Made by a program: the position numbers and the translations under genes
Shown: one piece after another, positions 3,808 through 56,682 of the stretch
Layout of the letters: each line of letters starts with the position of its first letter
Numbering within the stretch: the stretch's first letter is position 1
Notes under the pieces: model-generated
Seen by the model: only the letters and a program-made list of their open reading frames with translations
The model's database searches: none
What the model was told of the DNA's origin: nothing
Origin: Sordaria brevicollis
Lineage: Eukaryota; Ascomycota; Sordariomycetes; Sordariales; Sordariaceae
Reading direction: 5' to 3'
Length of the DNA stretch: 64,000 nt
NCBI GenBank assembly: GCA_033439795.1
Contig: JAUTDP010000009.1
Coordinates: 992,001 to 1,056,000, forward strand

Positions 3808-4029
3808 CTTGACGACTGACGATGGTGATCCCGATATATATAGTCGATGACGCTCTTCCGTTTGAGGGGGACTGAATGAGAAGAGAGTGCGCTCAAGGAT
3901 ACGTAACGGAAGACAGACGTGTGTCTTGGGCCTTGCGCATGAGAAAGAATGTTGAAATGTATGAGGCCACAGAAAAGAATGGAAACGCACATCTTCAAAC
4001 GAAATGTTGGTGTTGTGGGGGAGACTGTG

Positions 4030-4063
4030 GTACGGTGGCCCAGGGCGTTCTTCGTAACACATC
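4030..4063 (+). repeat. 34-bp inverted repeat, left copy, at the edge of the AT-rich island
   Basis: The 34 bases beginning GTACGGTGGCCCAGGGCG recur exactly, in inverted orientation, at 15939-15972. The two copies sit just outside the two ends of the AT-rich block. This copy lies about 225 bp upstream of the ATPase start codon. It shows no RIP damage. Confidence 0.95.
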
Positions 4064-5529
4064 CACAAAAGTGAAATTCTACCACCTATAGGTCATAGCC
4101 CCGTACCCATGTAAGTCTAGCAAAATTCAATTCCGCGCACATCCTTTTCGCACATTACATCTCACCCCGCACTTTTCTTTCTCGAATAATTATCTATTAC
4201 TATTATTATATCGCGCTAACTCCCTTATAAATATATTAATTAATATAAAATAATATTAATTAATACTTATTGTAATTTAATAAATTTATCGCAATTAGAA
4301 CTATACTTACGCCGAATAAATTTATTCCGTTTAAACCCCCCCTACCGGCGCCGAGCCCTTTTATTCTATAGAATTATAAGGGTAAGAGTTTGGGTAATAA
4401 AAGTACCGCCCCGGATAAAATTTAGGAGTAAGAGACTCCTTAGGAAGATATTTTACGCTTTATATTTAAAAAATTAAAGTAAAATAAAATTTAAGAAATT
4501 AAAAATTTATTAACCGAATATAAAGTAAAAAGATATTAATTAAATACTATAATCGGTAATTAAAGGAGATTAAATTTAATTAATATCGATAAATTATTAT
4601 TAAATTTATTATATTTAAAACCTATTCGAATAATAATAAAAATTATATTACGAATTTAAAATAGATTCGTATAAAATATTATATAGCCGTAGTTTTATAC
4701 TTATTTATAAAGTAGGTTAATATTTCCGATTATAAAAAGTATAAGGTAATTAATATTCCCGGGCCTTTTAATAAGTATATCGTTAAAAATTTCGCTATTT
4801 ATAAAAGTACTTATACCTATTACTCTTAAAAGGGCGTTAATAAAAATTATTCTTTGCGTATTAATAAAATTATATTTTAATCGTTTTTAATTATTATTTA
4901 CTAATTATATTTATAGAGTGGGAGGAGAAGAATACGGCGCCTACGAAAATTTATTTCTCGGAGGAGAATATCGTCGGTATTTTAATTAGAGTTTTAAAGA
5001 AGGCTTTTCGCTAAATTAAAGCGTATAAGAAGGAAATTGAAAATAATCTTTAAATATAACTTAATAATAAATAGTATAATACCTTTAAAGGTACTTTTCT
5101 AATTCTTAATTTATTTTTATCTTTTATCTTTTATTTTTCATCGAAATAATAATTTTTATTCTATTATTATTTTATTTTATTTATTTTTTATTTATTATAA
5201 ATATAATAATTTTCTAATTTATTTTTATTATTTATTTCTTTATAGTTCTTTAAAATATTAATTTTTATTTTATATTAAATTATTATTTTTTATTCTTCTC
5301 AAGAATAATAATCTTACATTTATTTTTTTCCCTTTTCTTTTATTATTCCTTAAAATATTAATTTTTATACCATTTTTATTCATTGTTTTTATTCTTTATG
5401 AAAATATTAATTATTGTAATGTTTTTAACCTTTTTATTAATTTATTTATAAAGAATAAAGTACATATTATAAAAGTATAGAAATAAATCTTATTATATCT
5501 AAAATATTATTATTATTATTATTATTTTG

Positions 5530-5604
5530 TTTTTATTTCCTAAATTAAAATAGTAAAAATAATAATATTATTAATTTTTATTATTTTAATTTAGGAAATA
5601 AAAA
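5530..5604. repeat. 75-bp near-perfect palindrome in the AT island
   Basis: Arms of 23 bp (5530-5552 and 5582-5604, starting TTTTTATTTCCTAAATT) are exact reverse complements. The 29-bp spacer is itself nearly self-complementary around AATAATATTATT. The arms contain CC/GG, so this is more than random A/T matching. Confidence 0.85.
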
Positions 5605-6240
5605 TACATAAAACGATAAATATATTATATAAAGAATAAGAATAATAATAAAAAGGAAAAGAAATAGCAAAGAGATTATAAATATAAGATTTATTTATAT
5701 ATTTTATTTTTATTTCGAATAAAATCCTTATTATATTTATTATTTTTTATAATTCCCAAAAGAATTACAAATTTGTAATAACGTTTAAAAATATATAAAT
5801 TATTATAATATTAATAATATTATTTAAATTTAATATCGAATTTGATTTTATTATTTTAATATTATTATATTTATTATTAATATTATTATTAATATATAAT
5901 ATAATAATATACAAATTAATATATAAATTTGAGAAATTAAGATTTTAATATATTATATATATATATAAAGAGACGCGCTATTTATATAATTTTTAAATTT
6001 TATTTATATAATACCCTACTTTAAGTTTTTTTTGGGATAAATCTTTAAGAAAAGGGTATTTAAATATAAAATCTATATTATTAAGACCGTTAATTTTTTT
6101 TATATATTTTAGGGTTTTTACTAAAATATTGAAAAATAAGAAAATAAACAATTATATAACTATTAAATAAATATTCTATAATAATAATAAAAAAATCTCA
6201 AAATAAAAATGATAGTAATAATAATAATAATGATACTATA

Positions 6241-7080
6241 AGGTATATAAGTAAAGAAATATATATTAAAGGATTAAAAGAAAAATAAAGAAGGTATAAA
6301 ATTAAAAGTAAGAATAAAAGAATAAAAAAAAGGAAAAATTAGGGGGGAAATAGAAAGAAAAAATAAAGAGAAAAAGAAATAAAAAGATATAAAAAGTGAA
6401 ATATATAATAAAAATTAAAATAAGGAAGAAAAAGGGATTTATAGAAAGAATAAAATATATTTTAAGAAATTTATATTTAAAAATATTTAAAATGAGAATT
6501 ATATAAATAAATTAAATAAATAATTATAAATTCATAAAAATAATTCTTAATTAAATAAGTATAAAGAAATAAATAAATATTAGGGTAAATATATAAGTAA
6601 ATTAATAAAAAAGGAAATTAAATGAAAATTAAACATAAAATAAATTAAATAAAGAATTAAATAAATTTTAAATAAGGAATTAAATAGGAAATTAAAGAAA
6701 TAAAAAAAAACCTAATAGAAATATAATAGGGTAAAGAATAAATAAAAAATGTAAATAAAATAAGGTTAGAAAATAATAATGGAAATGAAGGGGGAAATAT
6801 TAAAAAGGCTATAAAGATTTAGAATAAATATTTGAATATAAAAGGGAAAAAAGAAAAAGAAAAAATTAAATATAAATATATAATAGAAGAGGTTTTTTAT
6901 AAAGAAAATATATTATATTAGGTAGGGAAATTGATTAATATTTTAAAATATAATGGAGTAAGAAAGTAAAGAACGTTATAGAATAATAAATATTAAAAGA
7001 ATTAAAGCATTTAAAAAATAAAGGGGAATTATATAAAAAAGATTAGTAAAGGTAAAGAAAATTAAATTTATAATTAATAA
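6241..7080. repeat. C-depleted purine-rich stretch
   Basis: By eye about 840 nt contain fewer than about ten C on the + strand but around a hundred G, in runs of A/G. A block at 5101-5400 has the opposite skew, with C but almost no G. No coding or structural RNA signal is recognised. Confidence 0.75.
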
Positions 7081-7999
7081 AATACAAAAGGCGATTTATT
7101 ATCTTCCCGGGTTTAATAAATTCCGCTCGGGGAAGAATTATTTTAATATATATTTATATATTTATTAATTTTTCATTCATAAATAATTTATTATAATTAT
7201 TAAATTATATTAAAGTGAATAATAAATTTACTTTTATATATATTTTAAATAATTATTAAATATTAAATTTAATATAATAATTATTATAAATTATAAATTA
7301 TATATAAAAGTATAAAATAATATATAAATCTTTAAAATATAATAATATTTATTATTTAAAAAATATTTATATTATTAAAAAAAAAAGAAATTATATTATT
7401 TTATTTTTTTACGTTTATATACTACTTTTATAATAAAGACTATTTAATACCCGTTATTAATATTAGTCGTATTAATTCATACCCTTTATATTCTTCTATA
7501 AATCCGGGTTAATTTTATCCTAATTTTATTAATCAATTTTAATTAATTTTAATTTTTTTTTAATTATTCAATTTCCTTTTATCGATAGTTTTACTATACA
7601 ATATTTATATTATACCTTTATAATCTTCATTATTAATATGTCTTTCTTTTTAGCCTCTGCTATTTACCCCGTTTCGAATATGCCTTACGCAATTTATATT
7701 TAGGAGCACCCCTCCTAGGAAGTATATAAACGATATAATTAGAGATTTCTTTTCGTCGTTGAATTTAATAGGAATTCTACTTCTCTTTTATTATCCTAAA
7801 ATATTGAAGAAGAATCTTCTTAACCCGCCCCTCTATTTCTTTAACCTATTTAATTTATCCGTTAACCTCCTTAACCCGTTCGACCTGTCCTTATATTTAT
7901 TTTTTATATTTAATTATCGTCTTTTAACGCCTTCGTTATTTATAGGACCCTAAATATTTCGCTATTTAACTTTATAACGTTAAATAATACCTACTTTAA

Positions 8000-10900
8000 A
8001 TAAAAAAAAATAAGATTAATTAGAATAAATTTAATAAAATAGATTTTCTAATTATATTTTCGTAGTATAAAAGAAAATTCATTTAAATAAAGGGTAATAA
8101 TAACCGGTATATTTTAAAAATATCTTTTTATTATATTCTATTTATAATATACCCCTATCCTTATTTAATATCCGCTATTTTCGAAAATTATTAAACTTTT
8201 ATTAATCGAATAATTAAATAATCGAATAAAGAGGTTAAATTAGGGATTAAAAACGTAAATATTACGAAATTAGAATTTATTAATATTAACCTATATATTA
8301 TTAGCGGTAAATATTAATTTACTAATTTCGGATTTAATAAAAAGCGGCCCGTAAATTTTAATAATATTAAAAACCGATAATTAAATAACGGTAAAATTAA
8401 GGAGGGGATTATTTTTAATATTATATTAATAATAATACCCAACGAAGAGGATATTAAAAGCGAAGTCGAAACCCCCCCGAAGAGAAGTCGGAAACGTATT
8501 ATTAATTTAATTATTATTATTTCTGCGCTTACCCCTATTTATAAACGAATAGCTTCGCTAAAAAAAAGTAAATTTATTATTATTATTAAATAGGAATTAG
8601 GTATTAAAGAGGAGGATAATATTATAATATAAGAATTAATTATTAAATAAAAGCCGGGTATTAATAAAGTAAAATCGAATAAAAAAAGTAAGTGTATTAA
8701 GAAAATATTAAATATTAGAAAGAAATAAGTAATAAATAAAAAACTAATAATAAAATAAGAATTAATCGAAAATTTTGGCTATAGTAATTCGCTACCGCCC
8801 TCTTTATAGCGACCCTTTATAATTAAAAAGGAAAAAAATAATAATAAAAACGAAGAAGAATAGTAAAAGGGAAAGGGGGATAATAATATTAACTTTTTCG
8901 ATTTATTAATTAACGATATTATTATATTTAAGAGTTTAAAGCGTAAATCGGCTTTACGTACCCTAAAGTATATATTAACTATTTTTAGGCGGTTAAATTC
9001 GATTAACGTTAATTCGCTTCGATTAGCGTTAAATAATTTAAATACGCTTTTTACTCATTCGATATATAATTATTAGTAATAAATATAAGGGATTATAGGG
9101 CGGTATATAATATTAATTATAATTTCTACGTATTTTTAAATTTAATTTAACGTATTCGAATCCTTTAATTGAAATTATTCGCGTAATAATTTTTTTATAT
9201 AAATGATTATATTCGCTTCGTACTTTGCATTATTTATTTATAATATAAAAAAAATAATATAGGGTTTTAAAAAGTAATTTTAAAATATATTTAGAATTAA
9301 TTAATTATAATTCGTATATAATACGCCCTTCGATAATAATCGCTATCCGTAGATATTCCTTTATACTTACTATTATTAAACGTTAATTATTATTAATTTA
9401 AAAAAATCACTCTTATTCTATATTAATAATTATTTTATTATTAATATTATAACCTTTAATTATATTTTATTTACTTTTAATATTATTATTCTTTTCCGAA
9501 TATTAAATTACTTCGCTATTATACCTCCTTTACGTATTAACCTTTATATTTATTATAATTTTATTATCGATATATATTCGGTTAATTAACGTTATAATAA
9601 TATTATCCTTAATTTAAAACGTTTATTTAATTTTAAAATATTTAAATAAACGTTATAACACTTTACGAAAGAGATAGGGATTTTTTCGAATCGCGGACCG
9701 CGTAATCAAATTACCGACGACTTTATTTTAAAAATTAAAGAGTTTTTCTATAAATATTCGCTAAATAATAGGGAATTTTACGAATTCCTTTTTAAAGAAA
9801 ATTTCGTAAATATTTCAATTACCGGTATAAAAATATTATAGCGTAATTTAAATTTATATTATTTTAATATTTATAAACGTCTTTACGAAAAATTCATTTA
9901 AATTCGTATTATTTTAAACGAAAAAAAGAATAAAAACGAATTCTACTATATATAGAAATTTAATAAACGCTAATTCTAATATTATTTTAAAGTTAAATAT
10001 AATTTATTTATTCTTCGCGAATTATTCTTTATTATATTTAAAAACGTTTTCTCCGAAGTAATAAAAGAACGAATTACCTTCTTATAACGATAGAAAGGAG
10101 GTTAAATAGTATTAGGTCCCAATTATTAATAATATATTAACGGATATTATAAATTTAAACCCTTTAAAATTAAAGTTTATATTAATATTAATACGTATTC
10201 TTATTATATATTATAATTTTATATTAATATTTCCGCGATTATATAGCGGTTAATTTTTAATTAAATAGTAGAAGTAATTAATAAACGTAGGTTTTTACCT
10301 ATATAAATGCAATTTAATTGTAGCGGAGAAATTAATATAAGAGCGATATTAATTTATTATATAATTTTAAATTCTTTAATATAACGACGATTTAAATTAA
10401 AACGGATTATATAAAATAAAGTAGTAATTTTTAAATACAAATTAATAAGCGAAGACTTTATAATTAAATATAATATTATATTAAAGGATTAATAATTCTT
10501 AACGTATTAAAAAAGCAATATCCTAATTTTATATAACGTTTTAATCTAGGGAATAAATACTATTAATTAGAAGATTAAAAATTAATAGAAGTATTTATAT
10601 AATAGTAGGGTATATTTCTAGAAGGTAAGTCGTTTTTCGTTGATTTTAATTACCGTTAATTTATATTAATTAATAATAATTTAACGTTATTAAAATTACT
10701 TTTAACGTTTAGAAGTAATTAATTATTAATCGAAGGCGAGGATTAAGGATTGTATTACTTTATTATATACCTTTATACCGTTTATTCGAAAAGAATTCGC
10801 CGATTTTATTAGGTAGTAAAATTCCTATTTAATTTATTAATAATATTACTACCGCTATATAATACCGGGATAACCGCGCAATTTATATTATAAATATAAT

Positions 10901-11340
10901 AAGATTAAGGCTATAAATTATTGGGTAAAGATAGATTAAAATTAATAGCGCTATTTAAAGAGCTTTACTAACCGAAATAATTTCGAACGGAATAAATATT
11001 TATTTAAAAATATAATATAATTATATAAAAGGATTATAAATACTTTTATATTTTATACGCAAAATAGCGCTAATTCTTTATTATATATATAATATAATTA
11101 TTTTCGTAAGGAGTTTAAAAAGTATTATATTACTAGTATTATACCGGCGTTATCGCTTTTTAAATTATTAAAGGGCGTTTAGGAGGAATTGAAAAAAAAG
11201 TTGAATAATATAAGTATTAATATTAATATATAGGAAAATAAAGAAGGAGAGGAGGATAATTCGATAGAGGATAATATAAATAATTAAGAAGTGTAAATAA
11301 ATAATTAAAAATATTCGAGTATAATTAATATTAATTAAAG
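8000..11340. mobile_element. Degenerate RIP-mutated element of unidentified class
   Basis: This part of the island has more C and G than its surroundings, mostly in CpG, CpC and GpG, as expected when a once GC-richer coding element has lost its CpA/TpG sites. Stops occur in every frame. I could not recognise a transposase, reverse transcriptase or terminal repeats, so class and exact ends are unknown. Confidence 0.45.
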
Positions 11341-11384
11341 ATAATAATTGAGATTTTTATTGGAATTTTGGTATTATAGTTTAT

Positions 11385-11804
11385 GAGGATGTTTAATTGT
11401 ACGGCCAAAAAATCTTTTCTTTTTCACTTTTTAAATAATATTAAATTTAAGAAAAAAACCTAAAGTAGTAAAAAATATACCGCTAGAATTCTTGAATTTT
11501 ATTTTATTAATTATTTTAAATTTCGTTATAATAATTTTAAATTTAAATTAAGCGAGCTTTAAAATTTATAATATAAAATTAAATATTTTATTTCGAAAAG
11601 ATATTTAAAGAAAAGTTAATAAAAATAAAATAATTAATTAATAAAAACTATATTATTTTAAAGAATAAAAAATTAGAAAAATTATAATATTTTATTTATT
11701 TTAAGAGTATTTTTCTTTATTTTATAAACGTAGAAAGTTTTAAAATATAATTTTTTATTTAATTATACGAAAAGAGGTTTAAAGCCGTACAATTAATCGC
11801 CCTC
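11385..11804. mobile_element. 420-bp terminal-inverted-repeat element (type 1)
   Basis: The left end GAGGATGTTTAATTGTACGG matches the reverse complement of the right end (GAGGGCGATTAATTGTACGG) with three differences in 20 bp. Adjacent 8-mers (TAGTTTAT and TAATTAAT) match at six of eight positions, so a target duplication is possible but not secure. There is no coding capacity; a non-autonomous DNA transposon is the simplest reading. Confidence 0.6.
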
Positions 11805-12097
11805 TAATTAATATATTTTTAATATTAAAAATAATTATAATTATTAAAAGTTAGAATATTCTATAAAAAAATATTTATAATTATAATATATTTAAAGGAA
11901 TATTATTAATTTTGTAAATATTTAAAAATTATTTTTTTATTTTTATACTTTTATAAATAATAATAATATATATACGGTATTTTTAAAGAATCAAAAAAAT
12001 GCCAAAAAATTAGTTTAATATTTAATTTAAATAAAAATAATTTTTAAAAATTTAATATAAAATAAAGTAAAATATAAATATAAAAAAGTAAAAATAA

Positions 12098-12501
12098 GAA
12101 AAACGTTATTTATACGGATTTAAAACGCTATTTATACGGATGTGAAATTTCTAATACTTTTACTATTTAAAAAAAAAAAATCGCGAAATATTAAAAATAA
12201 ATCTATTTTAATTATTAATTTTTATTAATATTTTTATATTACGTACTTGCATTTTACAAACCTTATTCGTTAAAATGAAATATATTTTAAACTTTTTTCT
12301 AAATTTTTTTAACTTATTTTAAAAAATAAGGAATTTAGGTTTTTTTTTACGTAGAATAGAGTTTATAGAGCCGTTTGAAATATTAAAATATAGAGCAAAA
12401 AATAATAAAAATTCTAAACTAAAAAATATATTTTTCCTATGTAAATTAATTAAATTATTTAAATAACTATAATTTTCGTATCCGTAAAAATAGCGTTCTT
12501 T
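12098..12501. mobile_element. 404-bp terminal-inverted-repeat element (type 2, copy 1)
   Basis: The left end carries AACGYTATTTATACGGAT twice in tandem, and the right end carries it once in inverted orientation. The terminal 22 bp agree at 18 positions, two of the four differences being C/T. The flanks show a perfect 8-bp direct repeat AAAAATAA (12090-12097 and 12502-12509), the duplication size made by hAT-type transposases. A second copy lies at 14245-14642. There is no coding capacity. Confidence 0.75.
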
Positions 12502-12772
12502 AAAAATAAAATTGAATTTAATATATATTAATAACTTTAAAGTAAATTTAAAAAACTATTAAAATTATTTATTTTAATTTAATTAATCTAATTTATTATT
12601 TATTATAATAAAAATTAAAAATAATTTAAATTGAATTTTATTAAAGAATTTATAAACGTTTAATTTATTATATTAAAAAAGGTTTATTTATAAAAAGTAT
12701 AAAAAATTTAATAATAAATAATTTTTTACTTTTATAAATTTTAATTAATAAATAAATCGAAATATATATAAA

Positions 12773-13178
12773 GGGGTAATTTATTTGCACCGTAGGAAAA
12801 GTCTTAGTCAACCGTAATTTAAAAAGAAAATAAAGTATAATTTTACCGAATCCGAAATTAAGAGAATAAAAAGATTATAATTAAAATTGTTAATTTTTAT
12901 TAGATTTTTTAAGCTTAAAACTTCCTTTCACTTACGTTACCTTCACTACCTTTTTCCCCTTTTAATATATTTAATTATTAAAGAATATTTTTTATAAAAA
13001 GAATAATATATATATAAGGAACGAAAATAGTAATTAGTCCTAAATATAAAATAAAATATTAGGAAAATTCCTATATACTTTATGATTTTTTACAATTTTT
13101 TTTCGACGATTTATTTGAAATTAAACTTTTAGACTATAGTTAATTAAAACTTTTCCTACGGTGCAAATAAACTAGCCC
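12773..13178. mobile_element. 406-bp terminal-inverted-repeat element (type 3)
   Basis: The left end GGGGTAATTTATTTGCACCG matches the reverse complement of the right end (GGGCTAGTTTATTTGCACCG) with two differences, and the match continues through TAGGAAAAGT. A perfect 8-bp direct repeat TATATAAA flanks it (12765-12772 and 13179-13186). This fits a non-autonomous hAT-like element. Its ends differ from those of type 2. Confidence 0.8.
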
Positions 13179-14244
13179 TATATAAATTTATAATATTTTT
13201 ATTACGTTATGAATTTTATACTTTATTTAATTAATTTACCTTTAAATTACTTTTTTTTAAAATAATATATTAATACATATAAATAATATAAATAATAATA
13301 TTCTTTATAAATATTATTTGAATAAATAATAATTTATTCTTGAAAATTATATTATATAATTAATTTACATTTTTTTTAATATTAAAATAAAATTTAATAC
13401 AAAAAAATAAATAAGAGATAAGAAAATATTTATAATTCATTTATTATATATATATTATTATTTTAAAAAGGTTATTAAATTTATTAATTTAGTTGTAATA
13501 AAATTGAAAAATATTATTTAAAGGAAACCTTTTAGAATCTTTATTTTCTTTAAAATTAATATAATAAATATTATAAATAAATAAAAAACGTGAAATTTAA
13601 TAAATTAAGGAATTATATATTTATAAACCTTATTTGAATTATAGAATATTTTAATATAACTTTAATAGTTTTAAAATATTAAATTATAAAATATAATCTT
13701 TTTTTAAAAGGCTATATAAATATAATTTTCTTCCTTTATTTTAAATAATTATAAAATATTTTAAAAATTTCAAAATCTTTTTTTTTTTTTTTTTTGAATA
13801 ATTACTAAAATTGTTCTTAAATAAAATATTTTTATTATATTATTATATATTTTAAATTTAATAGAGATTTCAATTTATATTATTAATTATATATTTTTAT
13901 AATTTAAAAAAATTTTTTTTAACTTTTTAATATAATTAATTTTTAAAATAAATTAAAATATATTAAAATATATAATATAAATTCCCACCTTTTAATTTAT
14001 AAACTAATTTAAATTAATTTTAAAAAAAATTGAATTTAATTAAGAATTATTTATAATTTTATATATAAAATAATTATTTATATATAAATAAATATATTAA
14101 TTTAAAGAAGAATAATTTATTAAAATTCCAATAAAATCCTACTTTTATAATATTTCCCTTAATTTTAAATACGTAAAAGTTTTTTATTATAATTTTTTAA
14201 TTTACGAATAAATATTTAAAATTATAAATAAATAATTTTATATA

Positions 14245-14642
14245 GAAAACGCTATTTGTACGGACTTAAAACGCTATTTATATAATATAAAATTTCCTTA
14301 ATTAAGGATATTTAGGTAAGGAAAATAATGAAAAATCGAATATAATTTTTTTAGACCTTTAATTTTTACTAAATTTTTCAAACTACTCATTATTTTTTTC
14401 CGCTTTCTATTAGCCAAAATATTTACTTCCTTAAAATTATCTATTAATTATTTATAAATAATTATTAAATATATAAAATATAGTTTTCTAAACTTTAAAT
14501 AAGGGTTTTATAATTATTTAAGGGTAGAATATAAAGAAAAAAATAATAAAAATTCTAAGCCAATTAGCGTTTTTTTCTACTTTAAATTTAAAAAGTTATA
14601 AGGGAAAATATAAAATTTAAATCCGTATAAATAGCGTTTCTC
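14245..14642. mobile_element. 398-bp terminal-inverted-repeat element (type 2, copy 2)
   Basis: It has the same terminal motif as copy 1 (AACGCTATTTRTACGGA, doubled on the left, single and inverted on the right) and shares the interior stretch AATAATAAAAATTCTAA near the right end. It is flanked by a perfect 8-bp direct repeat TTTATATA (14237-14244 and 14643-14650). The second left repeat has decayed. Confidence 0.8.
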
Positions 14643-15938
14643 TTTATATATTAATAATATTATATTTATACGGTTAAACGTTTTTAAATATTTAATTAAC
14701 GTATAATAAAAATATTAAAATTATATTTTAAAAAATAACTTTTTCCCTATTTTTTTAATCGTAAAATATTAATAACAATTAATATTTATTAAAGCAAATT
14801 AACGATTATTAACGTTAATTAAAGATGATAAAATATAATAAAATAATTGGAAATGTATATAAATAAGGAATTAAAGAAAGAGAGAATAAAAATAATTCTA
14901 GGAGAAGAAAAGGAGAATAGAAAGAAATATTTAGTAAGGTATAAATATAAAAATACGTAAAAATAATTAATATATAGGAGAGAAAATTAATAAACGAAAA
15001 GAACGAATTAAATTAAATAATTATAAATATAAAATAATTAATAATTATTTTTACCCTTAAGGTAATACCGCCTTTTAAAGGGTTACTTTACTTAGCGCTC
15101 ATTTTTACGAATTTTGAATTTATTTATATAATTATAATAATTTTATTAATTCCTCTATTTTATTTCCTCTAATTCTCTTCCTCCTAACTTTATTATATAG
15201 CGAATTATTTTTAATTTTATTTACTCCCTCTTCTCTTTAATTTATACGGAAGGAATATTTAGTAAATTACCGGTAATAATAATAATATATATACCCTAAA
15301 GGATATTTTTATTAAGGACGACGTATTTATTAATAAGGTAGTAGTAAATTATATTATTAAAATAACGATTATATTTACCTATAATATTTTTTTCGAATAA
15401 TAAATAATAATAGTATAAATTTAATAGGGGAATTCGAATTTAATTATATAATTTCGAAAACGCCGTCGATATAACGGATACGGGGTTCTTAAAGCGGATA
15501 AATTTTTATTAATATTAATTAAATTAAATAACTTTATTAGACTGGATTTAATATTATAACGATATATTATATTATTGGAAAGTAAATATTTCGCCGATTT
15601 AGAATTGGACTTTTCGATCTCGTTAGGATTTAAATAATGCGTAAAAGATTCGAATTGTAGTAGTTTAAAATTTAGGGTAGGGGGAAGGGGTTCGCCGTTA
15701 TATTTAAAAATATTTTAGTAATAAAGTCAATCGTGTTAATTGGTGTAGATTTCGGTTAGTAATAGTGGGAAGACTTGTAATATATAGTATAGGGTTAAAT
15801 TATATTAAAAATATAGTTAGGAATAAAAACGAATTATGGTATTATATACTTAATGAAGTGGAGTGTATTTAGATTTTGGGTGGGGTACGGTTTTTCTATG
15901 CGCCACTTGCCCTATAGCTGTAATTAGGGCTCAACCCT

Positions 15939-15972
15939 GATGTGTTACGAAGAACGCCCTGGGCCACCGTAC
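15939..15972 (-). repeat. 34-bp inverted repeat, right copy, at the edge of the AT-rich island
   Basis: Exact reverse complement of 4030-4063. Sequence on either side of the two copies does not match, so the shared unit is only these 34 bp. Confidence 0.95.
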
Positions 15973-17077
15973 TGTGGGGTAATTGGGCACCCGTAGGGTG
16001 GTGAGGAGTGGCAGAACTCCCAGTCCTAACGTCTTCCCTCCACAGGGAAGGAACACCGGGAATTTGGACGTCCAGGGGCAGGTACCTCGGTGTCGGTAAT
16101 GAGTTCATCGCACCTTCCCATGTCTGTTTTCCATTTAGGAAGCACGTCAATCACGATGAATAAAGATGCTTCAAGGCAGTCGCAAAGGAAGTGTCACGGA
16201 GTTTTCAACTCGAAAAAGCCGTGGTCCATACAGCGGTGTTCCATGATCCACCCAAAGAACTATCCATTCCATCGCGGGACGTTCTTTGAGGTGTCGCCTG
16301 GTTCCTTGCTTACTGCAAACAGGGCTGAATCGAGTGGACAGGTGGGTACGGGCCGTTGCTCATATCCATCCTTGCCCAACATGCAATTATCTGTCGTTTC
16401 TTTGTTTTCATGCTGATCGCCGTCCCAGCTTTGCCGGATGGGCTGAAGGACAAGAATGAAAGGAAAAGACGTTGATCTTTCTGAAAGGACACCACGAGAC
16501 GCAAATCATGAGGTATGTACATAGGTAGGGCTGGGATTTCATCGGTGTCCGTTCTGTCAAGTACCCTTCTGCCCAAACCTGCGGTGTAGCCCTGGTTAGA
16601 ATCTAGGAGAGCGCAATATATCAGAACTGAAGTGGAATGAAAGGGGCGGGGCCAATTTGCTCACCACCTTCAGTCTACCGAAATCTGCAACGCTCCCTCG
16701 CTCCTTGAATTTCGGTAGTCCCCGGCCGTTCCGTGTGAAAGTGGATCCAATAAGCACTTGCCGTCACCGGTTGAGGCCGTCTTGGCCCTATGGCGGGGGC
16801 CGGGCGCGCAGAGAGGCCCGGCGAGTGGGGAAATGAGACATTGAAGCCATCAATTCAGAATCGGGCAACAACCCAAGAAGAGACAAGTGACAACCTCCCC
16901 CGGCTGGCCGCATCTTGGGAATAACATGGAAGAATGTCCACGACCACGGAAATCAACACGGGCACATTCTTCGCATTCCCATTACCTATCAGCGGCTTAC
17001 GACGGGTATGACAGACAGAGAGCGACGCCGTGACGGCAGGGCTACCATACAAGGTAAAGGTAGGCTTTGTGCTTCCC
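15973..17077. other. Intergenic, no gene seen
   Basis: Normal base composition returns here. Open frames are short and lie on both strands. No RNA gene or domain is recognised. Confidence 0.45.
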
Positions 17078-46829: not shown

Positions 46830-47017
46830 TATCAAATTAGAGGGTAGACTCGACTAATAGAAATAGGCTTACGTAAGGCGCCCCAGCCACCAAATTCTGG
46901 CTGCAAACCTTCCTAATAGTCTAGGCACCCCCAACTCGGGTTCCACAAAACTCTTCTAAATACACACATCGATTTTAACCCTCAATTACAATATCCACTT
47001 TACTATGCAATCTAACA
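46830..47017 (+). repeat. 5' LTR
   Basis: 188 bp, the same length as the 3' LTR with no gap. I count 11 differences between the two, all transitions and in both directions, consistent with RIP acting on each copy after insertion. Confidence 0.93.
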
Positions 47018-50000
47018 ATTAACAATCTAATTTGCAATCTCCGCGCTACGAAAACTTCAATTACACTAACTACAACTATTATCACTATTACTACCGTAAC
47101 CCACTACGTTATCAACCATATCCCAGTTAATCGACAAAAAAATCGTCGCTAAGCAAATCTACCTAAACTTTATAAACAAATTTAAAGAATAGAACAACGA
47201 ATTTATAGCTTACACTAAAGTCCTAAACCTCACCAACTATATACTAAGGGTATAGCCAGCTCCCCTTAAACCCACAGAGCTAACTATCATAAACTACGCC
47301 ATCAAGTCGTCCGCCCGCTACCGCATTGAAAAGGCTAAGGAAGCCCTCAACAACTTTAAAAATAATACCCTTACTACGCTAATCCCTCCTTACAGCGCCG
47401 ACGACATCCCCATAGGCGTAAAACTCACCGAAAAATCCTTAGAAAAATAAACTAACGACGCCACCGCCAAACTCACCGACCTTACTATCGCAGGGCTATA
47501 AAAGTATAACTACAACGTTAACATACTCAACCACCGGTCCAAAAAATACGAAACCTTCTCGAAGCACCGCGCTATACTCACCAAATAAATACATAAAACT
47601 ATTTGCCAAAATTACAAATCCAACCACTTCCGGAATAACGAAAATCTCCCCTAATAATATTCTACCCTAATTAAAGGGCTACAATACCGTCCCGAATAAA
47701 CCCTTATCAATACCCATAAGGCCTACCGCGACTACATCGACAAACCCCTTATAATAAAGCCTAAAATAGGAATAACTAAGTAAATCGACGGTTAGGAAAC
47801 TATTATAACCAAAGCCCAACTCTACGCAATCCCTAAATCCCTATTAACCACCGCCTAATTCCACGACCTTATTAAATATCTACGCCCCATTCGACCAAAT
47901 TAGGCCTCCGGCGCCTCGCGCCAACACCACCCACAAATCGTTAATAATACTCTCGACTTCCGTATTCTATCCGAGGATTTCCGCATTAAGGGCTTCAACA
48001 ATAAAACACCCGTAACTACATAAACTAAATTTAGCCGTAGAAATACTCGCGGGGCATCCTTTAAAATTAAAGGCAATACCCTCAATAAACTAAAGGACAC
48101 TAATACTAAAGTAAAGGACGCTCAACCCAATAAACCCTAACGCAATTAACGTAAAAGGAAGTACGCAATATAAATTAAAGACTCCAAATAGAACGGAAAC
48201 TCATCATCGTCATCTCGCTACAAAATCTACGAAGAAGGTACGCACATTACTAAACACTATTAGTATCTCTTTCCTAACAAAGCCCCAAACCCTCGCTAAA
48301 AGCCCAACCCTAAAATATAAACTCGAATAATTAAAAACCTCAACAACGATCCAAAACTTAAAAAGGAAATCGAAATCTAAAGAAAGGAAATAGTTAAATA
48401 ATTAATAAATCCTATCCCTAATACTAATAACCAATTTCAAAACAACTAACTCTCTAGTAAAAGTACCGCTACAAACCCTATTCCTATCCCCATTCAAATC
48501 TACAAAACCGCTATAATATAAGCAACACTCCAAGCGGGAGAAGGAAACTCTAATACTTACCCGCTCAAAAACTACACTCTTCTTAATTCTAACAACTCTT
48601 TACACATATTCAACGAAATTACGCGTTTCCTCAATTTCCATCACGCACCCCATAGCGACGACCTATAGGCTAAAGACTCACGTATTACAATCTAAGGTTA
48701 TAAGGAGGTTAATCTCATTATTAATAGAGAAAACGGGCCTAAAAAGCTACATCTCTACAATATAACCTTCTACCCTAACTTTATAACCAACCTTATCTCC
48801 TTATACCTATTATACAAACAAAATTTCTTCTAAGACTACAAACCACCCAATAACTACCTTCGTAATACAAACCAATTACTCTTTTACTATCTTAAAACCT
48901 ATTACCGCCAAACTCTACTTAAAGAGCTTCCCCATTCACTTACTCGGGCGAATTTCTACACCCATAAGAATATAATCAACTCCTATACAAGCCGCAAGCA
49001 CTACCGTAAAAACCCCCTCACCTAATATCTTAAATTAGGGCACCCTAGTCTCCAAGTACTATCCCACCTCCACAACGTATTAGGAACTAAAATCCTATTC
49101 AAGAATAAAAAGGAGGAGGACGAAGAAAACCCCAAAACCGAGCAATATAATACCTATACCTAAATAAAGATTAAATAGCAAATTAAGCGAAAACCCAAAG
49201 ACAAAGGGTATAAAGCTAAAAAACGTTTCGCTATAAACTTTCTCGATTACAAAGAAAGCTACCAAAACTACACCAACACCATATTCATCACCTATAGATT
49301 TACCGGGTATATCTAAGAATACTTCCTCTATAATCGATTCGCCACTATAATCGTAACCTACTTAAACGACCTCTTCACACTCCTTAAAATACAATTCGAC
49401 GTTATAATACGAATATTAGAATACGATAACGAAATCATAAAATCACAATTACTCCTAAACCTACTAACGCAACGCAATATAACTATAAAACCCTCTACCC
49501 CATATACCCAAATACAAAACGGAGGTACAAAACGCTCAAGAAACGTAATCAAGGATAAAGCGCGCGCTATAAATTTAGGTACTCGTTTTCCTAAGGATTT
49601 CTAACCGGAAATCGTCTTTATAACAATATATTTTAACAATCAATCCCCTAAATACCTCTACGATTAAAAATCTCCCTATAAAAGATTCTACACAACTATT
49701 ACTAAGAAAATTAATAATAATAACGACGAAATTACCCCCTACAAACCTAATATCTCCTACCTTCGAATTTATAACTATAAAATATTTATAATAACCACTA
49801 CCACTAAAAATAAATAAAATAGGCTTTAAAAAATAAACCCCAAAGCGTAAATTAAATACTTAATCGGTTATACCTCTACAGCCATTTATCGAATTTAAAA
49901 CCCTATTACTAACGAAATTATTAATACCCGCGACGTTATCTTTAATAAATACACCCTCTTTATTAATAAAGTAAAAAAGGAAGCCGAATCCCTAAAACTC

Positions 50001-52260
50001 ACCTCAAAAGAATTTACCGCCTTATTAAAAAAATACACCGCTAAAAAACAACTACTAAATAATTAATCTCCCTTCGATTTCATAATTAACCGTACCGATA
50101 TAGAAGATACGAATACTTATAACCTTCTAAATTCTCTCTTTCTCAACCCAATTTAAAAAAAGGAAATAATAAATATTAAAGAAGTGCAAACCGAAGAAGT
50201 AATTATTAAGGAGGTAGAAATTAGCATACCGCCTCTAAACCCCTTCAATAAAGCTACAAACCCAAAGGAAGACCGAATAACTATCGACTACCTTATTAAT
50301 CACGACTATCCAATACTACTAAATATACCACCACCAACTTCCTTTCTTACAAAAGTATTCGCCACAAATCGTACTAAATACGTTAAAAAGGAATTATTAA
50401 AAGGTTTCGAACCCTAAAAAATAGCATTCAACGCCGGACATCTTCACCAACCTATAACCACAACGTACAAGAAGAAAATTACCAAAGTAGAGCTACAGCG
50501 CTCCATACGCAAAAAAAGAGTAATTACCAAAAATACAATCGAATCCCTAATCGTTATCAACAAACTCCAGAGCCTCCACCGTTACCAACTACCGCCAATA
50601 CCTCGCAACCACAAGGACCTCGACAAACATCCCTTAAGCGACCTCTTTAAGCAAACCGAGCGAACTCACCTCGAAAGCCACAAGCAAATAAAAACTTAAG
50701 TAAAAATAAACCGCGACGAACCTAAAATTAAGGGCAAACAAATCCTCGATTATATATAGGTATACACTTACAAATACTTCAAGAATAACCACCTCAATAA
50801 AATTAAGACTCGTTTAATTATACGTAGAAACCAACAAACAAAGATTACAAGGTAAGAAACCTATACCTCCACCCTAGCAAAAAGGTCCTTCCGCACCCTT
50901 ATAACTATAACCGCACGCTTCAACCTTAAACTCATTTAATAGGACGCAATTAACGCCTTTGTAAACGCAATAATAAATAAAGAAATTTATATACATATAC
51001 CACTAAATTATTACATTTAGGGGAAAATATTCAAAATCCTCAAGGCACTATATAATCTTCATCGTTCCCCACTACTATAGCAACGAAAGCTCACAAGGAC
51101 ATTCAAAGCCCTAAGGTTCTACGCAATCCCTAAAAATCCCTATATTTTAATTAACAACGGTATTTTAATCTTCTATTACATTAATAATATTATCTTCTAT
51201 TACTACCCTACTAAGGAAGAAATTACCCGGCAATATATAAAGACTCTACAATCCTAATATAACTTAATTAGAAGAAAGGAGCTACAGTAGTTCCTAAGCA
51301 TTAAAGTAATCCGCGATCGCAAGGCCCGCAAAATCTAATTATTCCAACGGTTATACCTTTAAAAGATCTACAAACTCGCCAACGACAAACGTACCACCTA
51401 AATCCTAATAAACAATATCGAACTAATACCCTACAACTACAAGGCCACTAGCCAATCCATCCATCAATACTAAATCAAGATCGGGTCTATACTCTACATA
51501 ACCGTTATCACTAAACCAAATATTACCTTTACGGCCAATCGACTTACCAAACATAGCCACAACCCAAAACCAAAGCATTACAAGGCCGTAAATAAAGTAC
51601 TATATTACTTCTTTACTACCGCAAACTTAACCTTATACTATAAAGGAAATACCAAACTTCAATTTACTTTTAACGCCTCCTTTACCAATAACTCCATTAA
51701 CCGTAAAAACTCCTAAAAATTCACAGTAAAACTATATAATAGATTCATCCACTAGGGAGCCTCTAAATAATTAATAATAACCACTTCTATAACCGAAATA
51801 GAGCTCGTAGCCCTCTCCAACGTCGCTAAAGAAACACTATATATTATAAAACTACTCAAAAATCTTATACTAAAACTCTCCAACCCTACCCTAATTCTCG
51901 AATATAATAATATCTAAACACTCAAAATCCTAAACGTAGAAGTATTAAAACTAGTAACCAAATTCCGCTATATCGATATTCACTAACACTAATTAAAGCA
52001 AGAGGTATAGGCAAAGATAATTAAGGTATAGTATTTCAAGACTTTAAAAATGCCCGCAAACGGTATAACTAAGGTATTAACCGTAAAGAAACACTAGGAG
52101 TTCAGGAAATTAATAAAGATAAATTCTATACGAAACAAGGAAGGTTATTAACGGGTAAAATACCTAAGGATTAAGGAGATAAATAAAAAGGAGCAACTAA
52201 TCTTATATAAATAGCTTCAAATTTATCCATTTCAGGAAACAAACTGCATCTAAGGAGGTA
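47018..52260 (+). pseudogene. Degenerate gag-pol of the Copia element
   Basis: Recognisable remains, all on the + strand with many stops: a zinc-knuckle remnant near 47,600-47,640; the protease active-site region near 48,580-48,605; the LGHPSL motif before integrase near 49,030-49,055; the integrase core around 49,250-49,560, with a GYxxEYFL-like stretch, a DNE motif and an NGGxxR motif; and the YxDD region of reverse transcriptase near 51,175-51,190, where both Asp codons now read Asn. RNase H should follow to about 52,000. Stops come mainly from Trp TGG codons turned to TAG or TAA, and Asp or Gly codons have shifted to Asn or Ser. The longest intact stretch (50184-50417) lies between integrase and reverse transcriptase. 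Confidence 0.85.
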
Positions 52261-52448
52261 TATTAAATTAGAGGGTAAACTCGACCAATAGAAACAGGCT
52301 TACGTAAGGCGCCCCAGCCACCAGATTCTGGTTACAAACCTTCCTAATAGTTTAGGCACCCCCAACTCGGGTTCCACAGAACTCTTCTGAATACACACAT
52401 CGATTTTAACCCTCAATTACAATATCCACTTTACTGTGCAATCTAACA
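52261..52448 (+). repeat. 3' LTR
   Basis: 188 bp, homologous to 46830-47017, preceded by the purine stretch AAGGAGG as a possible polypurine tract and followed by GTTAT. Confidence 0.93.
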
Positions 52449-52453
52449 GTTAT
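52449..52453 (+). repeat. Target-site duplication, right copy
   Basis: GTTAT, identical to 46825-46829. Confidence 0.9.
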
Positions 52454-53323
52454 TCATGTTGTACCTTTGCATGTACTGCAGACTTTTTATTGGGCTAGAC
52501 CTTGAACGGAAAACTGACGGGAACCCTGGTCTCCACTTTCGTCTAATGTGTGGAGTTGGGCTGTTTTGCTTAACTGCATGGGCTTGGGAGTCTGTGCGTT
52601 TGCTATGCAAGCGTACAACGCAATTAAGCTCCGCGAGGTTGAATCCCCAATTAATTGCATAATTGTTCAGAGCCGCTCTCTATGTCCTCCAACTCTCCAG
52701 GGTACATGCTGCTAAGAGGACAAACCTGCATCACACATCCTTATCAGCTTATCGGCGAGCCAACCACGGCGACGTCCGATATTACGAACCTTCCATCATG
52801 AGCCAAATTCGGCAAAGAGGAAAGTAGATGCAAGCATAACCACAAAAAGTACTGGTAAAAGCGACTTGCACACCTAAAGTTTGCTGATCATCACCGACAC
52901 CAGTAAAACTAGTCAAGTAATGTCGAGACATACCTACAATTCCTTGTGTGAGAGTACGACATGCATCTTTACGGGTCCTGAACCTGTACCAACACAGTCA
53001 TCTTCCCCTTGAATCTTCGAGGTTGCAGCTTTCCCTCTTCCTGACTTCATATATTCATCCTCATCCATGGGGCTTTACCGGAAGGTAAGTACACTTACCT
53101 CCACAGACAAGAATCCACCACGTAAGGTCATCCAAAGAGAAAGGAGTGTCCTCCACTCAGAAGCAGTCGTCCACCACCCTCTCTTCCCATCCAGGCGGTA
53201 GTTCGAGACTCGAGAAACCAAATAATGCGACTCCGCCTTCAAGACCGCCATCCATCAGCAACATCAACAACGAAATGCATCACCGACCTCACAACCTCTA
53301 TATACTCAGTCTTCATCGTCCAT
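52454..53323. other. Intergenic, no gene seen
   Basis: Normal, unmutated sequence between the retrotransposon and the secreted-protein pair. Only short open frames. Confidence 0.5.
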
Positions 53324-53794
53324 TCATTGAGGATCGCAATACAGGATCTTGCCATGATATCCACACCCTTATGGTAGTCAACCAAAACTCAACGTCAGCC
53401 ACTGCAACTTTCTTCTCTCTAACAATAGACTTCCTTCTTGAACTCGGAAAAAAGAAAACAAACAACTTACTCCCTTTCAAAACACCCGACGAGACATCCA
53501 AAGGGTCCTTGTAAAACTTGCAGGTGCTGCCGGGTCTGTACTCGCAGTTGTCTGGGCAATTGCAAGCGAGGTCTACCCATGATGATCAAAGGATAAGAAA
53601 TAAGTCAGTGGTGATATACTTGGTATTCAAGGAGGGTTCATCTTGCTCAGTTACGTACAGGGACCACGGGCGGTGTAGATGTTGATTGGCGAGTTGATGG
53701 GTTCTGTCGAGGGGGGGATTGATGCTCCCAGGGCGTGGCTGACCATGCAGAGAGCAAAGATGGAGATTATGGCCGAGGAGGACTTGAAAAGCAT
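53324..53794 (-). CDS. Small secreted six-cysteine protein, paralog A
   Basis: Three exons, 53794-53659, 53572-53471 and 53367-53324, all junctions phase 1, giving 93 residues. Donors are GTACGT and GTAAGT, acceptors GGTAG and ATAAG. The start MLFKSSSAIISIFALCMVSH is a signal peptide with likely cleavage after the ALG around residue 23. The mature part has CNCPDNC, then GSTCKFY, then RCGYHGKILYC near the end: six cysteines, expected as three disulfides. Paralog B (54526-55059) has the same exon boundaries, phases and cysteine order, which supports both models. Role is unknown; small secreted Cys-rich proteins of fungi include signals, antimicrobial proteins and effectors. The Cys pattern does not match hydrophobins, which have eight. 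Confidence 0.82.
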
Positions 53795-53930
53795 ATTCGG
53801 TGGTGAGAACCCAGGCCGGGACAGGTTTGTTCGTGGTGTGGTGTTAGAGATGTATGTGTGAGTGTTTGAGCGTGAAGTTGGGAATTGTCGAGGTGTCGAG
53901 TTCATTGTATGGGCGCAAGACTTCGAAGGG

Positions 53931-53940
53931 TATTTATACC
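53931..53940 (-). promoter_or_regulatory. TATA box of paralog A
   Basis: GGTATAAATA on the minus strand, about 140 nt before the start codon. Paralog B has GTTATAGATACC at the equivalent place. Confidence 0.6.
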
Positions 53941-54033
53941 TCGTTTTTGACTGCTTCCGAAACTCCTCAAAGTCCCTGCCGACTCAGCAACGTATTTATC
54001 GTCGTGGAAGTTTTGTGCAACTCAATCCCCTTG

Positions 54034-54045
54034 TTGACGTCTCAA
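54034..54045 (-). promoter_or_regulatory. Conserved CRE-like promoter motif of paralog A
   Basis: TTGACGTCTCAA (written on +) includes TGACGTC, a bZIP-type core, about 240 bp before the start. The same 12 bases occur about 265 bp before paralog B. Confidence 0.5.
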
Positions 54046-54525
54046 GGGATGCGTACCTGCCGTCTGTTCTAAAAAAACGCAAAAACGCATAAAAAAAGTG
54101 AGAAATATGCCACCGCTCCCTGGGAAGTTGTGTATGCCCCGTATCGACCTCGCCTCAATCGCGTCACCGCAGTACTCTGCTTCAAGACTTGGGTGAGCCA
54201 AGAGAAAGCAAGAAGAAGAACTAGATGAGGAAGGAATGAATCATCAAGGTATCACACCTTCCACCGAGTACCAAAGACCCTCCCTCCCTCCATTCTATTG
54301 TCACATACATACATCCAGATGTCCTGTAATCATCACAGTGATCGACCGACCGACCGACCGACCGAACATTCCCATCCATTATATCCATTCAGACAGGCTT
54401 GCATTTCAGATAGCGAGCAACAAACACGTCGGTATACCAATGGCACTCTAAATAAACCACGCCAAAAAAATGAAAGTTTCGAGTCAGCCAAACTGCCCAA
54501 GCTTAAGTACCTATCCTCATACTTA

Positions 54526-55059
54526 TTAATTGCAACGAAGATAGCGACCAACATCTTCGCAGTCTAAGTAAAACCAACGCAAACCAAACGGGCCACAAAC
54601 AACCATCAGCCACTTGCGAAGTTTTGCTTTTAAGAAAGAAAGAAAGAAAGAAAGAAAGAAGAAATAGGTAATGACTTACGACCATTAACCACATATTGCG
54701 GGTCCGTAGGATTGCTAAAGTAATCGCCATAGAACTTGCAAGGGCTGCCGCGCTGGCGGTTGCAGTTGTTTGGGCAGTTGCATGCTGATACTATACATGC
54801 AAAGTGTCAGTAGTAGTGATATATACTTCGGAGGTATATTCGAGGTTTATGTAGGGCTGGTTGTAGGTGGTAGAGAGAGGTCCGTACCGGCTTCAACGGC
54901 GATCAAAAGGTGGGGCGGATTTGTATCAATGTCGGTGGCATTTGTTGTATTAGTTGAAGAGTTCGAGTTGATGGCTGCTCCGAGGGCTTGGGGGGTAACC
55001 ACCACCACCACCATGTAGAGAGTGAAGGTGGAGATGATGGCGGAGGACTTTAAAAGCAT
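54526..55059 (-). CDS. Small secreted six-cysteine protein, paralog B
   Basis: Three exons, 55059-54888, 54790-54680 and 54563-54526, phase 1 at both junctions, 106 residues. The signal peptide MLLKSSAIISTFTLYMVVVV is followed by an Asn/Thr-rich spacer of about 30 residues (NSNSSTNTTNATDIDT), with three potential N-glycosylation sites (NSS, NTT, NAT). CNCPNNC, GSPCKFY and GHCEDVGRYLRC follow, matching paralog A in order and spacing. The second intron holds a (GAAA)n run and both copies share GTGGCTGA near their branch site. A later acceptor (TTTTACTTAG) was preferred over a CTTAAAAG site because only it yields the paralogous end. Function unknown. Confidence 0.82.
54633..54660. repeat. (GAAA)n microsatellite in intron 2 of paralog B
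   Basis: About seven GAAA units; on the coding strand this is a TTTC tract. Confidence 0.9.
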
Positions 55060-55212
55060 CTTCTTGGTGATTTGGTAGTGAGAATCCAGTCTAGGTTCAG
55101 CTCAATCGGTTTCTTTCGTGATGTCAGAGAGAAGAGATTGTTGTCTGTGTTAAGTGTTAGTTCCGATGTTGTCTCGAATCATTCCCTTTTTCTGGTAGGG
55201 AAGTTCAATGAG

Positions 55213-55222
55213 GTATCTATAA
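55213..55222 (-). promoter_or_regulatory. TATA-like box of paralog B
   Basis: TTATAGATAC on the minus strand, about 155 nt before the start and aligned with the TATA box of paralog A. Confidence 0.5.
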
Positions 55223-55323
55223 CTCTTCTCTGCCGGCTTCACACACTCTTGTCATCGACTCAGTAAGAGTCGTTTTTTTTGTACCGTCGTGGAGTATTTT
55301 GCAAACCGAACCTCTTTCCTCAA

Positions 55324-55335
55324 TTGACGTCTCAA
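55324..55335 (-). promoter_or_regulatory. Conserved CRE-like promoter motif of paralog B
   Basis: TTGACGTCTCAA (on +), identical to the motif before paralog A and followed by a similar CGTCTGT/CGTCCGT stretch. Confidence 0.5.
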
Positions 55336-56682
55336 AGGAGGATGCCGTTCATGCCGTCCGTCGTCTACCGTAACAACGTTATAAATCAGGGCAAACGCCA
55401 TTACCCAGTAGGGGGAAGCCATGTAGGTATGCCCGTCTTGATGAAGCGTTAATCCAATCGGCATCACCGCCCTTACTCTACTTCGAGACGGAGGTGCAAA
55501 GCATCGGATCAGAGCCTCTATTCTAAACTTCGTGATAAAATATCCAAGGCTTGAACCAGGCTGAACCAGGGCTAGGCGGGTGACGAGTATATCAGGTAGT
55601 GTCGGTCTGGCCGGTCCGTACCGCTTTTGGCGTGCCTTCAAGTTGTTTGGCTTATCTACTTAAGGCCATGTTTGTTTTCCGTGCGCTTCTTGTGGGTGGG
55701 AAAAAGATTACATCCGACCCTTCCCAGTATCCTTTATCCAAACCACTACGACAGAATTGCCAAATGAGTTTGAGATAGTCGAGATGTGGTGCATGAGCCC
55801 TGGATTAATTCAACTTGGACTCAATTCTTCACTTGATGGTGGCAAGGAAGGGATTTTATCCCCTTGTACGGCAACCGCACGAGAACAAACACGACCTAGA
55901 AAGTAGAAGATCATGTGTTGCAACACTTACATTAAGTTTGCTCGCGTACCGTCAGCGAGATGAGTTCTTGTCAACGATACGGTGTTTTCGATACGATCTT
56001 GAGATGCCTTGTTGCGAGTCATGGTCCAAGTGTTCATGCTGGGCCGTCAAGACAACGGACTCAGCATATATGAATATATGAAACGCGAGCCTCATCATTT
56101 ACAATTCACAAGCGAAGGGAACCTCAAAACATAAAATTTTACAACGGCCTCCAAAGGGACCCACTTGTATTGATGAGATCGACACTGATGATGACCGAGC
56201 AGGTCATCCTAGATCGTGGAGAGTGAGACCCAACACCACCACATACTATGCTACATCCACCCTTGATAACATTATCCACCGTTGAGATCAAAACCCAATA
56301 TCCAAACACATTGTCCCTTTCACTCATACTCGCCCAGTCCAACCAAGTTGTCTCCATCACCAGCTGAACATCATCAAACACAAGTCAACTCCCTTTGTGA
56401 GTCCATCATTGTAAAGCATCATCGTCCAACTTCCTCCGCAAAAAACCAGAGAGAGCAAAAACGACAACATGTCTCAAGCTCAGAAAAGAAAGAAAGAAAT
56501 AGGTAACAGACTTTCTGGTCTGGGGTATCGTGGTAAAGTAAATGCAAACGCTGCAAACCGCTAAACAAACTGGGAAAAAAGAACAAACTGAATCATATGC
56601 TTCGCATGTACCAAAGAAGTCTGATGATAGGCAACAACATCGGATCACAATCTTGCTTCCAACTCCAGGTCAATGACCCGGG

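Follow-up and report, generated by a model that had tools for sequence, protein, structure and literature searches.

A tandemly duplicated pair of predicted NFAP2-group antifungal protein genes in Sordaria brevicollis

In a 64,000-nucleotide stretch of the Sordaria brevicollis genome (GenBank assembly GCA_033439795.1, contig JAUTDP010000009.1, positions 992,001 to 1,056,000; hereafter the window), we describe two adjacent minus-strand genes, gene A (53794-53324) and gene B (55059-54526), which form a tandemly duplicated pair of NFAP2-group genes and probably make secreted antifungal proteins with an NFAP2-like action on membranes. NFAP2 is the Neosartorya fischeri anti-yeast protein, which breaks yeast membranes and is being investigated for use against Candida. 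The initial annotation of this DNA had seen in the pair small secreted six-cysteine proteins of no named family, and it is this last point that sequence matches, together with the modeled fold of gene A, overturn: rather than a new family, A and B belong to the NFAP2 group, one of the groups of antifungal proteins made by ascomycetes, and what is new here are two further members of that known family. Among the candidate functions that it offered (secreted signals, defence proteins, or effectors), the guess of a defence protein fits this identity.

The assignment to the NFAP2 group is supported by several comparisons. For gene A, the only sequence match among solved structures is NFAP2 (8rp9, E 6.5e-11), which is also the first fold match of the predicted structure of A; for gene B, NFAP2 ranks first among four such matches (E 4.3e-9), and it is still matched when B is read with an alternative last exon (E 7.9e-9). 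A and B share with NFAP2 what looks by alignment like the same succession of signal, pro-region, and core, and further the spacing C-x-C-x3-C-x7-C-x(n)-C-x8-C, the gamma-core GXC-X3-9-C, and, in the case of A, the model fold. They differ from it in being only about 40-55% identical over the aligned parts, in being less charged, in the length of the fourth cysteine gap (17 in A and 20 in B vs 16), in the CPDNC of A, and in the three N-glycosylation sequons that precede the core of B. The PAF, AFP, and BP groups are likewise small, secreted, disulfide-rich antifungal proteins (PMC11423270), as A and B are predicted to be, but in a comparison of sequences only, neither A nor B nor the family profile had a match at E<=10 to any chain of these three groups, and no other antifungal-protein chain was listed in a second look (VIA).

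A family search of the protein database returned 103 homologous proteins, none of which (0/103) carries a precomputed Pfam domain, and NFAP2 members therefore pass as "hypothetical protein". No family was found at E<=1 in a Pfam search of A and B, nor any in an NCBIfam search of three members; for the family as a whole, the best Pfam match, DUF6520 (0.0027), concerned only 4 of 65 members, the others being scattered and weak, and was taken as chance. The NFAP2 group was reported in 2016 from Sordaria among other genera in a paper according to which none of the 35 NFAP2 homologs then found had been isolated (PMC5025423), and a study of gamma-core peptides published in 2026 (PMC13369176) gives NFAP2 as its sole entry from the group. 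That 2016 paper was the only one found by our literature search on NFAP2 in Sordaria or in Claviceps; no paper was found on SMAC_09189 or on an antifungal protein of S. brevicollis, and, judged by title, none on repeat-induced point mutation (RIP) in the S. brevicollis genome or on the duplication of A and B.

Gene Structure and Tandem Duplication

Both genes lie exactly where the initial annotation had placed them, with three exons each after splicing, and encode products of 93 (A) and 106 (B) amino acids; all features given below for them are on the minus strand, and their four introns are all of the GT-AG type and in phase 1. In gene A, exon 1 (53659..53794) encodes a signal-like peptide and a pro-region, identical to residues 38-82 of the public hypothetical protein B0T20DRAFT_264213 of S. 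brevicollis, and starts with a Met that all 65 aligned members have (65 of the 103 homologues entered the alignment). It is followed by intron 1 (53573..53658; 86 nt, GTACGT...TAG, with a CTGAC branch-like site 32 nt before its end), exon 2 with the CNCPDNC...GSTCKFY core (53471..53572), intron 2 (53368..53470; 103 nt), and exon 3 with the gamma-core GRC(x8)C and the stop (53324..53367). In gene B, exon 1 (54888..55059) encodes a signal-like peptide and an Asn/Thr-rich pro-region containing the three sequons, and precedes intron 1 (54791..54887; 97 nt), exon 2 with the CNCPNNC...GSPCKFY core, whose loop is 4 residues longer than that of NFAP2 (54680..54790), intron 2 with a GAAA-type microsatellite (54564..54679; 116 nt), and the preferred exon 3 with the gamma-core GHC(x8)C and the stop (54526..54563).

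The alignment of A and B bears out the proposed common signal-like start (M-L-x-K-S-S-A-I-I-S, with ALGA at the end of the signal-like peptide) and further reveals ACNCPxNC, GSxCKFY, and GxC-x8-C as common elements; among family members, the signal and pro-region before the core are read from the alignment only, an ALGA-type end being common. The Asn/Thr-rich spacer said to have been gained by B is likewise supported, the stretch before the core holding three sequons in B when it has none in 95 and one in 5 of the 100 other scored members (this motif and loop scoring covered the 103 homologues and NFAP2, 3 sequences without the CxCx3C motif being left out). Since residues 38-130 of B0T20DRAFT_264213 equal gene A letter for letter, the public annotation picked the same splice sites for it. 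The exon reading, with its phase-1 introns and six cysteines, was accurate. The genes were described as previously unmarked wrongly for A and, apparently, rightly for B, whose protein two profiles containing B did not retrieve from the protein database (among candidates of 0.55-1.75 times the query length). That the A and B exons are chance exons without any gene has a negligible probability in view of the identical exons in the public model of A, the 103 family proteins, the common intron phases, and the similarity of the upstream regions.

At the DNA level, a match between A and B spans their upstream regions (53795..54195 for A, alignable with 55060..55496 for B) and continues into exon 1, with about 61% identity over 511 columns (E 8.3e-21), and a second piece of 70 bases at exon 2 is 70% identical. 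With both gene stretches included, the match scores 86.8 bits, when comparisons of A with 60 random segments of the window never exceed 28.3 bits and average 19; because of this score and of the upstream similarity, A and B are true tandem duplicates. Nonsynonymous (dN) and synonymous (dS) divergence between them, estimated by the Nei-Gojobori method on few sites, differs by segment: dN is 0.149 and dS 0.366 for the signal, against 1.09 and 1.11, respectively, for the pro-region; for the core the values are 0.49 and 1.22, a dN/dS of about 0.40. On account of this contrast between segments, the core looks constrained and the pro-region free.

In the public model of gene A, the start is set at an in-frame ATG further upstream, with the addition of 37 codons (53795..53905) and hence of 37 residues before the signal-like peptide. 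This leader is present in 1 of the 65 aligned members and absent from the 64 others, the inner Met is the invariant one, and stops occur in gene B in the corresponding frame; for these reasons, the public start is most likely wrong and the leader would be 5' untranslated region.

Cysteine Gaps and Choice of the Last Exon in Gene B

The cysteine gaps are 1, 3, 7, 17, and 8 in A, and 1, 3, 7, 20, and 8 in B with the preferred last exon or 1, 3, 7, 20, and 13 with the alternative one (54389..54447), which ends in GQC(x13)C. These spacings were compared with those of 75 other six-cysteine members, which are alike in the first two gaps (1 and 3) by selection and all of which (75/75) have a third gap of 7, as do A and B. 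Their fifth gap is 8 in 47 cases, 12 in 12, 9 in 8, and 13 in none. Of 105 rows, 72 yielded a gamma-core, namely those of A, B, and 70 others: GRC-x8-C of A and GHC-x8-C of B agree with the GXC-X3-9-C definition, and the alternative exon of B (x13) falls outside it, as do 12 of the 70 others (x12). Because a fifth gap of 8 is found in 47 of 75 members and one of 13 in none, and because it fits the gamma-core definition, the family favours the last exon initially proposed for B (54526-54563). Branch-like sites nevertheless precede both acceptors (CTGAC 36 bases upstream of the alternative, CTGAT 42 bases upstream of the preferred one), which is why both last exons may be used.

Charge, CPNNC Motif, and Proposed Action

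For NFAP2, activity is reported to reside in NNCKHKKGSGC and not in the gamma-core (PMC5845869), the disulfide pattern abbcac has been established (PMC10273333), CPNNC was able to enter lipid bilayers in simulations, with a preference of NFAP2 binding for anionic lipids (PMC11351017), and, at a lethal dose, propidium iodide entered yeast cells in no more than 10 minutes (PMC5025423). By analogy, A and B, if expressed, would be made as pre-pro-proteins whose signal and pro-segments are cleaved; what is secreted would be a compact core, some 53 residues long, in which three disulfides presumably follow the abbcac pattern. The CPNNC motif and the basic loop near the N terminus would then touch and enter the anionic membranes of competing yeasts, when the beta-sheet with the gamma-core would keep the fold, and the yeast membrane would be broken.

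The two copies are not expected to be equal in this respect. Loop and gamma-core carry charges of +2 and 0 in B, +3 and 0 in NFAP2, and -1 and +2 in A; because the distribution of charge seen in NFAP2 is preserved in B and lost in A, we expect B to act like NFAP2 and to disrupt membranes better than A, whose action would be weak or altered. In addition, CNCPNNC is unaltered in 97 of the 100 other scored members (the exceptions being CQCPKNC, CQCPNNC, and CSCPNNC), when CNCPDNC is confined to gene A and the public record of it, with an acidic residue at this place in 0 of the 100 others. A is nonetheless unusual rather than unique, as a loop charge of -1 recurs in 12 of these 100 members, and a loop of -1 or less combined, as in A, with a gamma-core of +2 or more recurs in 2 of the 70 whose gamma-core was scored. 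A and B thus constitute two natural, strongly diverged variants lying side by side, which can be used to test the needs of activity in terms of charge and of the CPNNC motif.

Divergence of the Pair and Functional Drift

A number of observations weigh against an NFAP2-like function. The model of A matches 8rp9 with a Foldseek E of 6.4e-3, for a mean predicted local distance difference test score of 68.7 and a predicted template modeling score of 0.42, and has no fold match at E<=0.001 in Foldseek. A fourth cysteine gap of 16 is usual, though not defining, in the comparison set (68/75), from which A departs with 17 and B with 20, the latter value being found in 0 of the 75 others. The net charge is +2 in A (isoelectric point 8.24) and 0 in B (6.71), vs +5 in NFAP2 (about 9). 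In a tree of 76 rows (six cysteines and at most 115 amino acids, none from the PAF, AFP, or BP groups) and 88 columns, the terminal branches of A and B measure 1.14 and 1.27 changes per column, vs a median of 0.21, and B is placed away from A at a weak fork (96/53). Joining A and B costs 14.8 log units, an arrangement that is neither rejected (approximately unbiased test, p-AU 0.13) nor shown, and a four-row clade of A, B, QBC32DRAFT_316262, and SMACR_09189 is not rejected either (0.24). As regards the kinship of A and B, we give more weight to the upstream DNA and the exon layout that they have in common than to this 88-column tree; as regards function, the long branches and low charge may signal a loss of activity. 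With respect to charge, the other six-cysteine members (n=75) have a median of +1 and a median isoelectric point of 7.79; a high charge is a trait of NFAP2 itself and not of its group.

On this basis, A and B could be family members that drifted to another role, be it in self-signaling, in the cell wall or development, or against bacteria, antifungal action having been lost in one or both. The long branches, the near equality of dN and dS in the pro-region, and the negatively charged loop of A, along with its Asp in an otherwise almost invariable motif, all speak for such a drift; against it, the recurrence of a loop charge of -1 indicates that low charge is common in the family, and the core dN/dS still suggests constraint. 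We hold drift to be a serious possibility, though clearly the less probable one, and for gene A alone it overlaps with the antifungal explanation that we prefer.

Relatives in Other Fungi

Gene A groups with QBC32DRAFT_316262 of Pseudoneurospora amorphoporcata and SMACR_09189 of Sordaria macrospora (96/92, 99/83), its nearest annotated relatives, which have a signal peptide of the same style. Unlike A, both keep CNCPNNC and a fourth gap of 16, and unlike in S. brevicollis, a single family protein and no second one was found for each species in the protein database search. In an attempt at synteny, one neighbour protein of A and B had 11 matches, none of the 3 named ones being from S. macrospora.

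Consecutive locus tags and equal-sized contigs suggest that adjacent NFAP2-type pairs also exist in three species of Claviceps (E4U55_003860/003861, E4U43_000183/000184, and E4U41_006460/006461) and in Microdochium trichocladiopsis (B0I36DRAFT_359930/359931), as far as locus tags tell; in the Claviceps pairs, unlike in A and B, one partner is short (59-71 amino acids) with hardly any pro-region. An NFAP2-type protein is moreover annotated in Daedaleopsis nitida and groups with two Coniochaeta proteins (97/81). As D. nitida is a basidiomycete, this entry would reflect either transfer or contamination.

Some relatives of A and B come from fungi known from plants, and the two products are small, cysteine-rich, endowed with a start resembling a secretion signal, and encoded near a RIP-affected repeat, as might be expected of effectors or signal proteins acting on a plant or animal host. 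We nonetheless consider a host-directed role very improbable, the characterized relative, NFAP2, being antifungal and S. brevicollis being a saprobe.

Other Copies and RIP in the Genome

A six-frame search of the whole genome with QBC32DRAFT_316262 and NFAP2 as queries, in which very diverged exons can be missed, recovered A, B, and one further place, at C1:2288035-2288148. In the NFAP2 search, this locus on contig C1 outscores both A and B, with 58% over 36 residues and an E of 9.9e-7, but its three-frame reading has an in-frame stop in the N-terminal frame, and at the position of CNCPNNC it has tyrosines for the three cysteines and a leucine for the proline. Cysteine to tyrosine and proline to leucine are changes of the kind made by RIP, and the surrounding DNA has 17-31% G+C, a TA/AT index of 1.1-1.5, and a (CA+TG)/(AC+GT) index of 0.1-0.7. 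The locus thus reads as a RIP-degraded relic of an NFAP2-type gene, and since it is the only further one found, A and B appear to be the sole intact family genes of this genome.

Within the window, the three 500-base bins covering gene A and the intergenic gap (53001-54500) are not RIP-like (G+C 0.46-0.50, TA/AT 0.61-0.70, (CA+TG)/(AC+GT) 1.15-1.16). Over gene B, TA/AT and (CA+TG)/(AC+GT) are 1.19 and 1.02 in 54501-55000 and 0.83 and 0.94 in 55001-55500, values that lie close to or within what is commonly regarded as the RIP range and that would reflect either mild RIP or the effect of the AT-rich intron and the microsatellite, which add to those of 54501-55000. These indices, together with the rapid change of the pair, the lengthened loop, intron 2 microsatellite, and two possible last exons of B, and the fate of the third copy as a RIP relic, could indicate that one or both genes are decaying, functionless duplicates. 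Both genes however retain an intact reading frame, intact splice sites, and all six cysteines, dN is lower than dS in the core, and the bins of gene A and the gap are not RIP-like, all of which makes decay unlikely. Still more doubtful, yet worth formulating, is the idea that the ancestral-type NFAP2 gene was lost to RIP on contig C1 and that the A/B pair, as sole carriers, split the trait, B keeping the basic membrane loop and A having its charge moved to the gamma-core, as complementary partners or with separate targets. The RIP relic, the fast divergence, the probable public start error, and the adjacent pairs suggested in other fungi add modestly to the interest of the locus.

Neighbouring Repeats

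Rfam and tRNA scans of the whole window returned nothing. About 0.9 kb past the 3' end of gene A lies a repeat (46830-52452) with the form of a long terminal repeat retrotransposon, Copia-like by our reading, with 192-bp end repeats that are 93.75% alike and, apparently, flanking GTTAT direct repeats. RIP-like change in it is almost one-sided (TG 14 vs CA 365; G 10.6% vs C 25%). Further away, a 12-kb AT-rich block (4001-16000; G+C 12-21%) is also RIP-like, its change being two-sided (CA 93, TG 122).
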